DNA from: Haloferax larsenii JCM 13917
Lineage (GTDB): Archaea > Halobacteriota > Halobacteria > Halobacteriales > Haloferacaceae
DNA length: 64,000 nt
Assembly (NCBI RefSeq): GCF_000336955.1
Contig: NZ_AOLI01000025.1
Span: 11,637-75,636, forward strand
Reading direction: 5' to 3'
The notes beneath the pieces were generated by a model. That model was not told the origin of the DNA. It did no database searches and saw only the letters and a program-made list of their open reading frames with translations. Of the stretch, positions 11,627-55,953 are shown one piece after another. Both the position numbers and the translations under genes were made by a program. Each line of letters starts with the position of its first letter. Positions within the stretch are counted from its first letter, which is position 1.

Positions 11627-11673
11627 GTGGACGACCTGCGAGGGAGAATTTGTAGTGGACGACCTGTGAGAGA
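11627..11673. repeat. Pair of 19-bp direct repeats between convergent genes
   Basis: GTGGACGACCTG followed by C/T-GAG-G/A-GA occurs at 11627-11645 and 11655-11673, 28 bases apart with two mismatches. It lies just after the stop of the membrane protein gene, in the gap to the convergent radical SAM gene. A gaaaattc palindrome follows near 11685. The region may serve as a bidirectional terminator or be a small local duplication. Confidence 0.5.
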
Positions 11674-29484: not shown

Positions 29485-29488
29485 GATC

Positions 29489-30892
29489 ATGAAGGAATAC
29501 CAGACTATCACCGAAATCAGCGGCCCGCTGGTGTTCGCCGAGGTTGACGAGCCGATCGGTTACGACGAAATCGTCGAAATCGAGACGCCGCAAGGCGAGA
29601 CCAAGCGTGGACAGGTCCTCGAATCGAGTGAGGGCCTCGTCGCGATTCAGGTGTTCGAAGGAACCACCGGTATCGACCGAAACGCGTCCGTCAAGTTCCT
29701 CGGCGAGACGCTCAAGATGCCCGTGACCGAGGACCTCCTCGGTCGCGTGCTCGACGGGTCCGGCCAGCCTATCGACGGCGGCCCGGAAATCGTCCCCGAC
29801 GAGCGCCGTGACATCGTCGGCGCAGCAATCAACCCCTACTCCCGCGAGTACCCCGAGGAGTTCATCCAGACTGGCGTCTCCGCCATCGACGGCATGAACA
29901 CCCTCGTCCGTGGTCAGAAGCTCCCCATCTTCTCCGCGTCGGGGCTTCCCCACAACGACCTCGCACTGCAGGTCGCCCGTCAGGCGACCGTGCTCGAAGA
30001 GGAAGGCGACGAAGACTCCGAGTTCGCTGTGGTCTTCGGCGCGATGGGTATCACGCAGGAAGAGGCCAACGAGTTCATGGAGGACTTCGAGCGCACGGGT
30101 GCACTCGAGCGCTCCGTCGTCTTCACGAACCTCGCGGACGACCCCGCAGTCGAGCGGACGGTCACGCCGCGTCTCGCCCTCACCACGGCCGAGTACCTCG
30201 CGTTCGACAAGGACTACCACGTCCTCGTCATCCTGACCGACATGACCAACTACTGTGAGGCGCTCCGCGAAATCGGTGCGGCTCGCGAAGAGGTCCCCGG
30301 TCGCCGTGGCTACCCGGGTTACATGTACACTGACCTTGCGCAGCTCTACGAGCGCGCAGGTCGTATCGAGGGTCGCGAAGGGTCTGTCACCCAGATTCCC
30401 ATCCTCACGATGCCGGGTGACGACGACACGCACCCGATTCCGGACCTGACCGGCTACATTACGGAAGGTCAGATCTACATCGACCGCGACCTCAACTCGC
30501 AGGGCATCCGCCCGCCGATCAATCCGCTTCCGTCCCTCTCGCGTCTGATGGACGACGGTATCGGTGAGGGTCTCACCCGCGAAGACCACGCCGACGTGTC
30601 CGACCAGATGTACGCGGCGTACGCAGAGGGTGAAGACCTCCGCGACCTCGTGAACATTGTCGGTCGCGAGGCGCTGTCCGAGCGTGACAACAAGTACCTC
30701 GACTTCGCAGAGCGCTTCGAAGAGGAGTTCGTCGACCAGGGATTCGACACGAACCGCACCATCGACGACACGCTCGACATCGGGTGGGACCTCCTCTCGA
30801 TGCTGCCGAAGTCCGAGCTCAACCGTATCGACGAAGAGCTCATCGAGGACTACTACCGCGACGAAGCCGAGACCGTCGAAGCGGACGCCTAA
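29489..30892 (+). CDS. atpB: A-type ATP synthase subunit B (regulatory nucleotide-binding)
   Basis: This is a 467-residue protein. It lacks a proper Walker A lysine motif ([20 protein letters not shown] in that place), as expected for the non-catalytic subunit. SRWAEALREIG-like sequence appears as [20 protein letters not shown]. The ATG at 29489 follows atpA by four bases. It ends 132 bases before the Bat regulator at 31025, and this is where the uninterrupted operon ends. Confidence 0.96.
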
Positions 30893-31024
30893 CTCGGCGA
30901 CTTCGATTCTTTCTTCGGACGCGATTTCCTTCCGAGAGCGGTCGCTTTCGTCCGCGCTCCCGTGAGTACGCTGTCGAACCGTCCGAGAGCGAGGTTCCTT
31001 GTGCTACCAGCGTGTGTATGAGGT

Positions 31025-33010
31025 ATGTCAATTGCTTCGCCGCAGGCGCGTGTCTTCTCTGTCGTCGGCGACGACATCCGAGCACGAGTCGAACGCGAAC
31101 TCTCGTCGTTCGACGTCGAAGCCGTCGACTCGGCCGACGCTGTCGAGCGACGACTCGCCGAAGACTCTGCGGACTGCATCGTCATCGACACGGACTCACC
31201 AGCAACCGTGACAGCCATCAGCGAGACTGGCGTTCCGGTCGTCGTACTGGTCTCTCCGGACGCCGACCTCTCGCCGGGGGACGCACTCGATGCCGGTGCG
31301 GAAGACGTCGTTCCCGTCGTCGAGTCTAACCTCTTCGACCGACTCGGTGCCCGCGTCGCCAGCGTCGTGTCGTGGCACGACCGTCACGAGGAGGCGACAG
31401 ACCGGATTACCGAAGACCTGAAAGAACGGGCGATGGACGAAGCGCCCGTCGGAATCACTATCTCGGACGGCTCGCTCCCCGACCACCCGCTCGTCTACGC
31501 CAACGACGCGTTCGAGTCGATGACGGGGTACACCATCGAAGAGGCGCTGGGTCGAAACTGCCGATATCTGCAGGGTGACAAGACGAACCAAGAGCGCGTC
31601 GCCGAACTTCGCCGCGCAATCGATGCCGAGGAGTCGGCGTCGGTCGAACTGCTGAACTACCGGCGAGACGGCTCGACCTTCTGGAATCGCGTCGATATCG
31701 CGCCGCTTCCCGGTCCCGATGGCTCCGTGACTCACTACGTCGGTTTCCAGACGGACATCACAGAGCGCGTCCGCGCCGAGCAGGCCGCAGAGCGGTACGC
31801 CGCCCGCGTCGAAGAAGAACGCGCCCGACTCCAGAATCTCGTCGACCACATCGAAGGACTGCTCGAAGATGTCACGGGCGCGCTCGTCCGCGCGGAGACG
31901 CGCGCGGAACTCGAAACGACAGTGTGTGAGAAAATCGCCGCGTCGCCGTCGTTCGAGGGCGCGTGGATTGGCGACGTCGACCTCTCGCCGAAGGAAATCG
32001 TGCCGAACGAGTGGGCCGGAGCCGAATCGGCCACGCTGTCGGAACTCCGAATCGACCGCGACGACGACACCGACCCGACCGCGCTCGCCGCCACGACCGG
32101 GGAGGTACGGTCACAGACGGCTTCGGATGGCCGCCTCCACGCCGACGTGTCGCTGCCATTTACGAACGTTATCGCCGTCCCGCTCGTCCACCGTGATACG
32201 ATGTACGGTGTGTTGAGCGTGTACGCGACAGCGGCCGTCGACGAGTACGTACAGGCCGTCTTCGGGACGCTCGGCAGAGCAGTTGGGGCCGCCATCGACG
32301 CGTTCGAGAGCCGACGGACGCTCATGTCCAACGAGGTTCTCGAACTCGAACTCGAAATCACGGACTCGACACAGCCCCTCGCCACGCTCGCCACCTCGTG
32401 GGGATGTCGGCTCGAATACGAAGGGTCGGTTCCGCACGATGACGGGACGGTGAGCCTCTTCGTCTCGACGACGCCCCCGACCGCCGGCGAGGATATCGAC
32501 ACCGAAGAAACGTCCGAATTCGGTGCTGAGGGTATCGTACGCGTCTCGCAACTCCCGCGGGGAGACGACGCCGGACTGTACGAAATCATTCTCGCATCAG
32601 ATTCGCTTTTACACCTCGTCGCCGACGCGAGCGGCCGGATATCAGACCTCGAAGTCGACACCGACGGGACCCGACTGACCGTCGTAGTCCCGGACCGCGC
32701 ACTCGGTCGGTCGCTTCTCGACGACCTGAAAACGGTCGCACGGGGTGTCGAGCTCCGTGCCGTCAGGGACCGTGCGGTCCCGCCGCAGACCCAGCGAGAG
32801 TTTGCCGCGAGCGTCGGTGCAGAACTCACCGACAGACAGCGAACTGCGCTCCAACTGGCGTACCTCGGCGGCTTCTTCGAGTGGCCCCACGGGGTGAAAG
32901 GCGACGAACTCGCCGAGGCGATGGGTGTCTCCCGACCGACGTACCACCAGCATCTCCGTGCGGCCGAGCGAAAGCTGGTCACTCGGTTTTTCGAGAGCGA
33001 GGTTCTGTAG
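31025..33010 (+). CDS. Bat-type regulator with LOV photosensor domain
   Basis: This is a 661-residue regulator. Residues 8-110 look like a pseudo-receiver. Residues about 135-250 are a LOV domain with the photoactive cysteine in GRNCRYLQG (C179), the flavin contacts of NYRRDGSTFWN, and Q242 in GFQTDIT. A GAF domain follows at about 270-420 and the Bat domain at 430-590. The HTH_10 motif lies at about 600-655 (LTDRQRTALQLAYLGGFFEW, then MGVSRPTYHQHLRAAERKLV). LOV domains form a flavin-cysteine adduct in blue light, so this protein should sense blue light or redox state and change transcription. It sits between atpB and atpD in the same direction. Confidence 0.9.
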   Translation: MSIASPQARVFSVVGDDIRARVERELSSFDVEAVDSADAVERRLAEDSADCIVIDTDSPATVTAISETGVPVVVLVSPDADLSPGDALDAGAEDVVPVVESNLFDRLGARVASVVSWHDRHEEATDRITEDLKERAMDEAPVGITISDGSLPDHPLVYANDAFESMTGYTIEEALGRNCRYLQGDKTNQERVAELRRAIDAEESASVELLNYRRDGSTFWNRVDIAPLPGPDGSVTHYVGFQTDITERVRAEQAAERYAARVEEERARLQNLVDHIEGLLEDVTGALVRAETRAELETTVCEKIAASPSFEGAWIGDVDLSPKEIVPNEWAGAESATLSELRIDRDDDTDPTALAATTGEVRSQTASDGRLHADVSLPFTNVIAVPLVHRDTMYGVLSVYATAAVDEYVQAVFGTLGRAVGAAIDAFESRRTLMSNEVLELELEITDSTQPLATLATSWGCRLEYEGSVPHDDGTVSLFVSTTPPTAGEDIDTEETSEFGAEGIVRVSQLPRGDDAGLYEIILASDSLLHLVADASGRISDLEVDTDGTRLTVVVPDRALGRSLLDDLKTVARGVELRAVRDRAVPPQTQREFAASVGAELTDRQRTALQLAYLGGFFEWPHGVKGDELAEAMGVSRPTYHQHLRAAERKLVTRFFESEVL

Positions 33011-33173
33011 GCGACTTCCCCCGCCCCGTCCTGTCCCGCCTCGACTCCGGGGAGAACGTGTTGGCCGGCTACCACGTCGTCGCGGCTCCCCCTGCCGCCT
33101 GCCCTGTTTTCGCCCCGGACAGCGGGCCAGACAGTAAAAGATTAACACCCCAGGCGAACAACCCTCGCCAAAG

Positions 33174-33854
33174 ATGGCCGAAGACGTCAAGCCGACCCGC
33201 AAGAACCTGATGGCGATCGAAGATCGCATCGAACTCTCTGAGCGGGGTCACGACACGCTCGAACAGAAGCGGGACGGCCTCATCATGGAGTTCATGGACA
33301 TCCTCGACCAGGCACAGGACGTGCGGGCGAACCTGAACGCGGACTACGAGCGCGCCCAGAACAAGATTAACATGGCTCGCGCCATGGAGGGTGACGTCAC
33401 GGTTCGCGGTGCTGCCGCAGCGCTGAAAGAGTACCCCGAGATTACGACGCAGTCGAAGAACATCATGGGCGTCGTCGTCCCGCAAATCGAGTCCTCGCGC
33501 GTCAAAAAGAGCCTCGACCAGCGCGGCTACGGTCTGCTCGGTTCTTCGGCCCGCATCGACGAGGCTGCCGACGCCTACGAGGAACTGCTCGAATCCATCA
33601 TCCTCGCCGCGGAAGTCGAGACGGCGATGAAGAAGATGCTCGAAGAGATCGAGACGACGAAGCGCCGTGTCAACGCGCTCGAATTCAAACTGCTTCCCGA
33701 ACTCTACGAGAACCAAGAGTACATCGAGCAGAAGCTCGAAGAGCAAGAGCGCGAGGAAATCTTCCGCCTCAAGAAGATCAAAGCCAAGAAGGAAGAAGAA
33801 GAGAAGGAAGCGCGAGAGGCCGAACAAGCCGCCGAAGCCGCTACTGCGGACTAA
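33174..33854 (+). CDS. atpD: A-type ATP synthase subunit D
   Basis: This 226-residue central-stalk protein has two long antiparallel helices ([20 protein letters not shown] near the N-terminus, and [20 protein letters not shown] at 140-160). It ends in an acidic/basic tail ([20 protein letters not shown]). Unlike the other subunits it is separated from the operon by the Bat gene. A TATA-like aaaagattaac (33136-33146) 28-38 bases before the ATG suggests its own promoter. Confidence 0.95.
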
Positions 33855-40110: not shown

Positions 40111-40130
40111 CTACCTTACTAGTTAGGTAG
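40111..40130 (+). promoter_or_regulatory. 20-bp near-perfect palindromic operator before the zinc microprotein
   Basis: CTACCTtACTAGTtAGGTAG is palindromic apart from one mismatched pair (positions 7 and 14). It covers the TATA position (about 25 bases before the upstream ORF start at 40138), where a dimeric regulator would block transcription. Confidence 0.55.
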
Positions 40131-40137
40131 AACTGGT

Positions 40138-40197
40138 ATGCTGACACCGGACAAAGGAATGAATGAGGCAGGAGGAACCTGCCACCCCCAACAATGA
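40138..40197 (+). CDS. Upstream ORF (leader peptide), 19 residues
   Basis: The peptide is MLTPDKGMNEAGGTCHPQQ. Its stop TGA (40195-40197) overlaps the ATG of the zinc microprotein (40194-40196) in an ATGA arrangement. Within the ORF a hairpin GGCAGG (40167-40172), aggaa, CCTGCC (40078-like arm at 40178-40183) encloses the Shine-Dalgarno GGAGG of the next gene (40171-40175). Translating ribosomes would open it. The role is inferred; no conservation was tested. Confidence 0.5.
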   Translation: MLTPDKGMNEAGGTCHPQQ

Positions 40198-40346
40198 GCC
40201 GATGCAACTACTGCGACGCGTTCGTATCGAGCAACTTCATACGCGTGTTCGGTGACGACAAAGGGCGCGTCTTCGCCTGTCCGAACTGTTCGGCGAACGC
40301 CGGCGTCTCCCAAGTGAGCGCCGAGCGAAAGGCGGCGGGTCTCTAA
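40194..40346 (+). CDS. 50-residue double-CxxC zinc-finger microprotein
   Basis: The protein starts MSRCNYCDAF, with a first CxxC at residues 4-7 and a second in FACPNCSANAG (about 29-32), so four cysteines should bind one zinc. Between them FVSSNFIRVFGDDKG forms a beta-hairpin. Similar haloarchaeal one-domain zinc fingers exist and some affect swarming, biofilm or stress. It has a leader with an operator, an upstream ORF and a hairpin over its Shine-Dalgarno sequence. It is followed by a 293-base gap before rbkR and is probably monocistronic. Confidence 0.82.
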   Translation: MSRCNYCDAFVSSNFIRVFGDDKGRVFACPNCSANAGVSQVSAERKAAGL

Positions 40347-40639
40347 GCCTCGCTTGGTCCTGCCGACCCCGGCCCTACGTGTGTCTCCACACGTCCCACA
40401 CACCGCACATGCGCTGACCAACCTCCCCCGATTCCCAACCCCCACCCACCCCACTCCTCTCGTTTATCACCCTTCCCAGCGACGCGACCGTCCGCTTCTC
40501 GCTTTGCTGGACCGACCGACGGACTTACCACTCGCCACCCGAAAGTCAGACTACGAGCGGCTCGGAACTCGCCCATCTCATTTCTGGAACGCATCTCACA
40601 TACGATACGCTTATGGGTCGAGCGTTCGAAGCCACGAGT

Positions 40640-41353
40640 ATGTCAGAATCGGCAGTCGCCAGCGAGGTCGGGTACGACGAGTTGGCAACGCTGAAGCTCG
40701 TTGCCCTCGACGGCGGGCGCGCTGAACCTGTCAAGGTCTCTTGTTCTGGACTTGCAGACAGGTTAGACGTCTCTAACCAGACGGCGTCGCGTCGCCTGCA
40801 ACGCCTCGAAGAAGGTGACTACATCGACCGAGAGGTCGTCTCGGACGGCCAGTGGATTACGATAACCGAGGCCGGCGAATCCGCACTCCGCCGAGAGTAC
40901 GCCGACTATCGACGTATCTTCGAGACGCCGTCGATGGTCGTCCTCGAAGGCGAGGTGACAGGCGGCATGGGCGAAGGTCGCCACTACATCTCGCTTCCGG
41001 GATACATGGAGCAGTTCACCGAACGACTGGGTTACGAACCCTTCCCGGGAACGCTGAACGTTCGGCTCAGCGACGATGCAATTCGTGCCCGCGCTGGGAT
41101 GTCCGCACTCGACGCCGTCCCAATCGACGGCTGGGAAGACGACGAACGGACCTTTGGTCCGGCGACTTGCTACGCCGCAGTCGTCGAAGCGGACGACGAG
41201 ACGTACGACCCGGTCCACATCATCGTCCCCGAGCGAACCCACCACGACGAGTCACAACTGGAGATTATCGCGCCCGACAAACTCCGTGACGAACTCGACC
41301 TGAAAGACGGCGACATCGTCACGGTTCGCGTCGAGGAGGTCGAGACGGAATGA
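40640..41353 (+). CDS. rbkR: RbkR: regulator fused to CTP-dependent riboflavin kinase
   Basis: This is a 237-residue bifunctional protein. Residues 1-85 are a winged helix ([20 protein letters not shown]) and residues 90-237 the CTP-dependent riboflavin kinase ([18 protein letters not shown], then [13 protein letters not shown]). The kinase makes FMN; the HTH part represses or activates riboflavin genes, as described for archaeal RbkR. The ATG at 40640 is chosen; the frame extending to 40613 is not needed. The start overlaps nothing, but the stop overlaps ribB in ATGA, so kinase and synthase are co-translated. Confidence 0.93.
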
Positions 41354-54873: not shown

Positions 54874-55953
54874 ATGCACGTTATCGGCCGCGACGCAGAC
54901 GCAGGCGGCCCAGTCTGTGACCTCGGAACGTACCGCGCCCGCGACGGGAGCACCGGAGCACCCGTCGGCCTCGACGTAAACCACCCTCACGCGGCGGTCG
55001 TCGTCGGCAAACGCGGGAGCGGGAAGTCGCACACGCTCGGCGTCGTCGCCGAAGGGCTAGCTCGCGCCGAGGGTGTCGCACCAATCGTCGTGGACCCGAT
55101 GGGTGTCTTTTCGGGACTCACGGCTGCCCCAATCGATGGAACGGTCCATCATGACCCGACAGTCCGCGCAAGTGCCCTCCCGCCTAGCGCGTGGCCCGAC
55201 CTCCTCGGACTCGACCCAACTAGCTCGGTTGGGTCGCTCGTCTGGCAAGTCGCTGCTGAGACCGACTCACTCGCCGAGATGCAGTCAGCAGTCGCCGACG
55301 CCGACGTGACGGCCGCCACGCGACGGGCTGCCGCGAATCACCTCGCGCTCGCCGACTCGTGGGATGTGTTCGGCCCCGATGGGATAGCAGTCTCCGACCT
55401 TTGCAGCCCGACACCGGACGTCCTCGACCTTTCCGGGATGGACGAGCGCCCTGCGAGCGCCGTCGTTCGCGTCGTCGCCCGAGGGGTGTACGAGGCCCGC
55501 GTCGCAAGCGCGGTGGACCACCTCCCGTGGCTCCTCGTGGACGAGGCGCACGCCTTTGTCGGCGGCGTGGCAGACCCGGCGCTTCGAACGATTCTCACGC
55601 GTGGGCGCGCACCCGGTGTCGGACTCGTCCTCGCAACGCAGCGCCCATCTGCACTCCCCGATGTCGCCGTCTCGCAGGCCGACCTCCGCATCGTCCACCG
55701 GCTCACCGCCGGACCGGACGTGTCGGCGATGGCCGCCGCCGACCCGACGTATCTCGATTCGAATCTCGAATCTCGGCTCCCTCGAAAACTGGGCTGTGCG
55801 CTCGTCGTGGACGACACGACCGAATCGGTTCACGACGTACGCGTCCGTGAGCGCGACACGCCCGACGGTGGTTCGACACCCGTCGCGGTCTCGGAGCGCG
55901 ACGCGACCCCCGCCTCCGTTCCGACCCACGACGCTTCCGAAACCATGGAGTAG
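54874..55953 (+). CDS. HerA/DUF87-like ATPase
   Basis: This is a 359-residue P-loop ATPase. Walker A is GKRGSGKS (45-52), Walker B is LLVDEAHAF near 225, and LATQRPSALPDVAVSQADLR is the sensor motif. The HerA/FtsK fold makes hexameric DNA translocases. The typical HAS barrel of HerA is reduced or absent here, and NurA is not adjacent, so it is a short orphan version. Function in DNA processing is inferred. Confidence 0.87.
   Translation: MHVIGRDADAGGPVCDLGTYRARDGSTGAPVGLDVNHPHAAVVVGKRGSGKSHTLGVVAEGLARAEGVAPIVVDPMGVFSGLTAAPIDGTVHHDPTVRASALPPSAWPDLLGLDPTSSVGSLVWQVAAETDSLAEMQSAVADADVTAATRRAAANHLALADSWDVFGPDGIAVSDLCSPTPDVLDLSGMDERPASAVVRVVARGVYEARVASAVDHLPWLLVDEAHAFVGGVADPALRTILTRGRAPGVGLVLATQRPSALPDVAVSQADLRIVHRLTAGPDVSAMAAADPTYLDSNLESRLPRKLGCALVVDDTTESVHDVRVRERDTPDGGSTPVAVSERDATPASVPTHDASETME

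Follow-up and report, generated by a model that had tools for sequence, protein, structure and literature searches.

The stretch of DNA analyzed here, hereafter the window, comprises 64,000 nt of Haloferax larsenii JCM 13917 (contig NZ_AOLI01000025.1, forward-strand positions 11,637 to 75,636), and harbors a gene encoding a 50-residue zinc microprotein which matches the DUF7563 profile (PF24444) with 63.8 bits, above the curated cut-off of 27, and in which four cysteines are conserved in the alignment (Table 1). This gene is followed on its 3′ side by rbkR (40613 to 41353), which specifies a riboflavin kinase/regulator, and then by ribB, while argS is located divergently on its 5′ side; the locus was present in all 15 Haloferax genomes. 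Because HVO_0326 and HVO_0327 of Haloferax volcanii represent rbkR and ribB, respectively (PMC8305020), and are likewise adjoined by HVO_0325, the zinc microprotein gene should, by position, be the orthologue of HVO_0325. Deletion of the latter produced no phenotype in growth, bile-acid, biofilm, or swarming assays, none of which represents a light-dark or low-oxygen test (PMC6562870), and no discussion of the HVO_0325 promoter or leader was found in the literature searched. A small RNA, HVO_0325s, has been reported in H. volcanii and was 2-fold upregulated in the strains described (PMC11899642); in the window, positions 40347 to 40639 form the gap separating the zinc microprotein gene from rbkR. 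A PDB search with the DUF7563 protein returned insignificant matches only (E of 0.22 or worse), and the single-sequence structure prediction of the 50-residue product (pLDDT of 47.7) was too poor for use. A nearly universal, MPxC-type DUF7563 paralogue constitutes an extra copy in the other Haloferax genomes; no match to it was obtained in two closely related genomes (G000 and G003).

Table 1. Features of the zinc microprotein locus and of the linked bat gene (window coordinates)
Feature	Position	Strand	Basis
bat orthologue, 661 aa, candidate regulator acting at the palindrome	31025..33010	+	homology, Pfam, motif, ORF
20-bp palindrome CTACCTTACTAGTTAGGTAG, one mismatched pair	40111..40130	.	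conserved; bop/hop/crtB motif elsewhere
Putative Bat-type UAS, 16-bp core ACCTTACTAGTTAGGT	40113..40128	.	within the 20-bp palindrome
TATA-like box TATGCT (in most relatives TATATC or a similar sequence)	40137..40142	+	A+T peak in 116 promoters
Reported 19-codon leader ORF MLTPDKGMNEAGGTCHPQQ; judged not functional	40138..40197	+	not conserved; upstream of predicted start
Predicted transcription start	40165..40167	+	UAS and TATA distances
Predicted 5′-terminal mRNA hairpin, arms 40167-40172 and 40178-40183, loop AGGAA	40167..40183	+	conserved, arms vary
DUF7563 zinc microprotein, 50 aa, Cys4	40194..40346	+	PF24444, alignment

The first-pass annotation of this DNA had described a near-perfect palindrome acting as an operator upstream of the zinc microprotein gene, a description which was borne out both in its letters and by comparison, as the palindrome is retained in 15 of 15 Haloferax genomes and in four genomes of genus g85 (L123 to L126). 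Its occurrence exceeds chance expectation: the zinc-gene promoter site scores 16/16, while among 3,000 random 165-nt windows of the same genome a score of 13/16 was reached once and never surpassed. The core is, moreover, the sole site with at most one mismatch in its own genome, and the motif with up to two mismatches is practically private to the zinc-gene promoter in 14 Haloferax genomes. Two sites with two mismatches were encountered in the own genome, one of which (55214 to 55229) resembles a UAS and was set aside as a chance match since it lies inside an ORF, the other being located at G000:C12:216436. The DUF7563 orthologue of genus g85, which preserves the operator and the hairpin described below, occupies another locus, where it is divergent from a gene for an Lrp/AsnC-like regulator whose C terminus is Cys-rich (TRASH-like).

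Outside the DUF7563 promoters of Haloferax and g85, 12 exact matches to ACCYWACYAGTWRGGT were found. Six of these are positioned upstream of halorhodopsin genes (L261, L262, and L270 to L273), one upstream of a bacteriorhodopsin gene adjoining a bat gene (L260), and one upstream of the phytoene synthase gene crtB (L269), with the protein names being taken from a reading of the translations; the remaining four (L266, L267, L268, and L274) had no gene assigned or an apparently unrelated one. In a second and independent promoter set, collected by bacteriorhodopsin homology from Halorientalis, Natronomonas, Halosimplex, and others, a start was usable at 10 loci, of which nine carry a 13-15/16 match situated 41 to 42 nt before the ATG. 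The palindrome also fits ACCnnACTAGTTnGG, which we take to be the published consensus of the upstream activator sequence (UAS) of Bat. On the promoter matches, the palindrome is best read as a Bat UAS; in Halobacterium, such sequences mediate the action of Bat at bop, brp, bat, and crtB1 (PMC1885257, PMC1502140, PMC1447603). The operator is thus recognizable, contrary to the first-pass view of a layered control system not recognized from described haloarchaeal genes, and both the operator and its regulator are of a known kind.

A candidate regulator is encoded 7.2 kb from the zinc microprotein gene (6.8 to 10.9 kb in the nine genomes measured). This full-length Bat orthologue harbors PAS, GAF, BAT, and HTH_10 domains according to Pfam, its PAS domain carries the LOV-type motif GRNCRYLQ, and it is 60% identical over 496 aa to the Bat encoded beside bacteriorhodopsin in L260; an orthologue was found in each of the 14 Haloferax genomes searched. 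Rhodopsin (PF01036) was absent from 13 of these 14 genomes, in line with the loss of rhodopsin reported in Haloferax (PMC1885257), and the lone rhodopsin-bearing genome contains its copy at G010:C13:126610-127272 (L293). In the window, bat is flanked by A-type ATP synthase genes (encoding an alpha/beta-type subunit and subunit D; 29486 to 33854). As atp genes are color-coded in one study's map of bacteriorhodopsin-linked regions (PMC1885257), this arrangement may be a remnant of a bacteriorhodopsin-linked cluster.

The layout resembles that of the Halobacterium purple-membrane regulon in that the palindromic operator lies directly upstream of the TATA box, in the distance from the operator to the start (here a predicted one), and in the presence of a nearby gene for a Bat protein with the same four domains. 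It differs in that the presumptive target gene encodes a DUF7563 zinc microprotein and is found mostly in rhodopsin-less genomes, and in that the mRNA is predicted to possess a 5′-UTR with a terminal hairpin. A further likeness exists to the small bop regulators Brz and Brb (PMC2253796, PMC3184054), among which a small zinc-finger protein is connected with Bat, although here the zinc gene itself bears the operator and its placement relative to rhodopsin genes differs. Because Brz acts with Bat at bop (PMC2253796, PMC3184054), it is plausible, by analogy, that the zinc microprotein represents a target or a partner of Bat.

Two measures of distance, from the UAS and from the TATA box, agree in predicting transcription to start at the foot of the hairpin. 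The distance from the end of the UAS to the hairpin foot is 38 to 40 nt in 19 of 19 orthologues, compared to 41 to 42 nt from the end of the UAS to the ATG of bop and hop, whose transcripts are taken to be leaderless on the example of bop, and the hairpin foot follows the center of the TATA-like box by approximately 27 nt. When 116 promoters were aligned on the first paired base of the stem, a purine-rich A peak appeared at −37 to −34, accompanied by A+T peaks at −30 to −25 (up to 88%) and at −11/−10. In its sequence composition this pattern is the BRE/TATA/−10 layout of haloarchaeal promoters (PMC4983044), which would place the first base of the stem at the transcription start.

The hairpin itself had been proposed by the first-pass annotation from the pairing of GGCAGG with CCTGCC; these letters were confirmed, and the stem is conserved in relatives. 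Taken alone, the hairpin of the window is modest (−11.1 kcal/mol, z = −1.8). A stem is, however, located shortly before the ATG in all 19 orthologues (15 of Haloferax and four of g85), in the form of GGCAG(G)/(C)CTGCC, AGCAG/CTGCT, or GGGCGGCG/CGCCGCTC. Of 138 DUF7563 upstream regions collected from Halobacteria, 57% carry a strong stem (score of 17 or more) in the 42 nt that precede the ATG; the corresponding share was 7% for dinucleotide shuffles, 11% for more distal upstream segments, and 17% for the other genes of the window. When stem, spacing, and the position of the TATA box were required jointly, 92 of 137 DUF7563 promoters qualified (67%, a proportion which, given the relatedness of the DUF7563 sequences, does not represent 92 independent events), with 46% having at least 6 bp. 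The same joint pattern was observed in five of 230 control genes (2.2%; none with at least 6 bp), these being the genes with intergenic promoters in stretches totaling 400 kb of the genome to which the window belongs. Rfam covariance models gave no match at the hairpins of eight loci (E up to 1). Some members lack the hairpin, namely a Halorubrum-like group (L128, L142, L143, and L192), in which a conserved "ATGACCCACGATACC" stretch occupies its place, as well as L127, L131, and L234.

Covariation was scored by script for each sequence, since the hairpins of the H. volcanii group were not brought into register when the short leaders were aligned with MAFFT. Loop length varied from 3 to 12 nt and 35 distinct perfectly paired stems were recorded in the DUF7563 promoters, for which reason a function as RNA is favored over one as a rigid DNA operator. 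At the first non-Watson-Crick pair outside the stem, G-U exceeded A-C in the mRNA sense by 39 to 4 when counted by sequence (105 to 115 in shuffles), an asymmetry which is in itself suggestive, as only 11 to 4 (p = 0.12) remained after collapsing to distinct stems. Due to the weakness of this collapsed bias, the preference for RNA rests mainly on the variable loop length and the position at +1. That position is also the classical one for a repressor, and the inverted repeat could accordingly be a DNA operator, recognized by a repressor or by the microprotein itself, with the RNA hairpin being incidental. Lineage-specific arms separated by loops of such different lengths are, however, unlike the fixed spacing of a dimer site, and we regard a DNA operator at the start as unlikely.

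That the palindrome is read by a regulator other than Bat, for instance by RbkR or by a different HTH_10 protein, was also considered, given that rbkR adjoins the zinc microprotein gene and that many further HTH_10 proteins are encoded in Haloferax. Against this stands the finding that, in other genera, rhodopsin and crtB genes are marked by this operator. RbkR, in particular, was rejected because rbkR has no DUF7563 gene upstream of it in 40 other genomes and because the motif marks rhodopsin genes; in addition, the operator and its gene lie at another locus in g85, and rbkR appears, as read by eye, to possess a leaderless promoter of its own (cttatg approximately 28 nt before 40640). A different reader of the palindrome is consequently deemed distinctly improbable.

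Palindrome and hairpin were thus conserved in the relatives compared, while the leader ORF and its stop overlap, the remaining elements of the original proposal, were not. According to that proposal, translation of the 19-codon ORF would open the hairpin, expose a ribosome site (GGAGG, 40171 to 40175), and couple translation to that of the zinc microprotein gene through an ATGA overlap (40194 to 40197). The letters of all three elements are as had been stated. In the closest relative (L002, 97% identical), the loss of one base throws the leader ORF out of frame, so that it no longer ends at the ATGA, and an ATG-to-TGA ORF ending in the start of the gene is missing in 13 of the 15 Haloferax species. 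The second species with an ATG-started overlap (L014) would encode an unrelated 21-residue peptide, MLPGDDSRTTGRRPAVPTTHP. In both cases the ATG is provided by the TATGCT variant of a TATA-like box that elsewhere is mostly TATATC-like, and the overlap arises by coincidence, where ATGAGN at the start of the gene meets a single open frame. The ATG of the leader ORF is consequently situated within the TATA-like box, and from the predicted start it follows that it lies approximately 28 nt outside the transcript. A start downstream of 40140 and a stop overlap not shared by close relatives had both been named as evidence against the leader; the overlap is indeed not conserved, and the start placed here, by prediction, is of the kind named. 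The leader ORF is probably neither transcribed nor a real gene.

The GGAGG motif lies 18 nt from the ATG of the zinc microprotein gene, is changed to GGAGA in L002, and is absent from the other 13 Haloferax genomes. Shine-Dalgarno motifs are not used in the 5′-UTRs of H. volcanii and have been proposed to aid re-initiation inside operons, at 5 ± 2 nt (PMC3986360). A hairpin serving as a mask for such a motif was rejected, as the loop is not conserved. The resemblance to a coupled upstream ORF is superficial and limited to a single sequence, and, even though operons of H. volcanii commonly contain ATGA overlaps (PMC3986360) and upstream ORFs have been proposed in long haloarchaeal leaders (PMC4983044), we consider control by leader translation highly improbable.

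We propose instead, with a probability of about 0.72, that a Bat-type promoter drives the DUF7563 zinc microprotein gene and that the resulting mRNA begins with a stem-loop. Bat, an activator with PAS (LOV-type), GAF, and HTH_10 domains, would bind the palindrome that immediately precedes the TATA box and recruit the basal machinery to TATGCT, which is a poor TATA sequence and would constitute a weak box; light or oxygen may thereby exert control over the gene. The RNA would begin at the hairpin foot, yielding a 5′-UTR of approximately 27 to 29 nt that opens with the stem-loop, and translation would proceed from the ATG some 10 nt past the stem, employing neither a Shine-Dalgarno motif nor a leader peptide. 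The 5′-terminal hairpin probably sets the lifetime of the mRNA, ribosome loading, or both, the message being leadered rather than leaderless, and may delay degradation that proceeds from the 5′ end. It is also conceivable, though quite unlikely in our estimation, that the 5′-terminal stem-loop, which accompanies DUF7563 genes through many families of Halobacteria with altered arms, is a cis-regulatory RNA recognized by the DUF7563 protein in an autoregulatory manner; in Haloferax, this autoregulatory loop would be fed by a light/oxygen input through Bat that was kept after the loss of rhodopsin, and a zinc microprotein would have taken the place of a light pump in the nearly single-target Bat regulon. 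Neither the use of a Bat operator ahead of a DUF7563 gene in a genus largely devoid of rhodopsins nor a class-wide hairpin at the 5′ terminus of DUF7563 mRNAs was found in the literature searched.

In salt-loving archaea, the Bat operator normally switches on the genes of light pumps (rhodopsins). Among organisms whose mRNAs are mostly leaderless, a leader that is structured from its first nucleotide onward would be unusual. If the proposed reading is right, Haloferax, a non-phototrophic genetic model, retains a photoreceptor-like Bat whose best predicted binding site in the genome belongs to one zinc microprotein gene. This would offer a concrete hypothesis for the role of Bat in the absence of rhodopsins, and would suggest an input, open to testing, for a DUF7563 gene that could be deleted with no phenotype in the assays tried.
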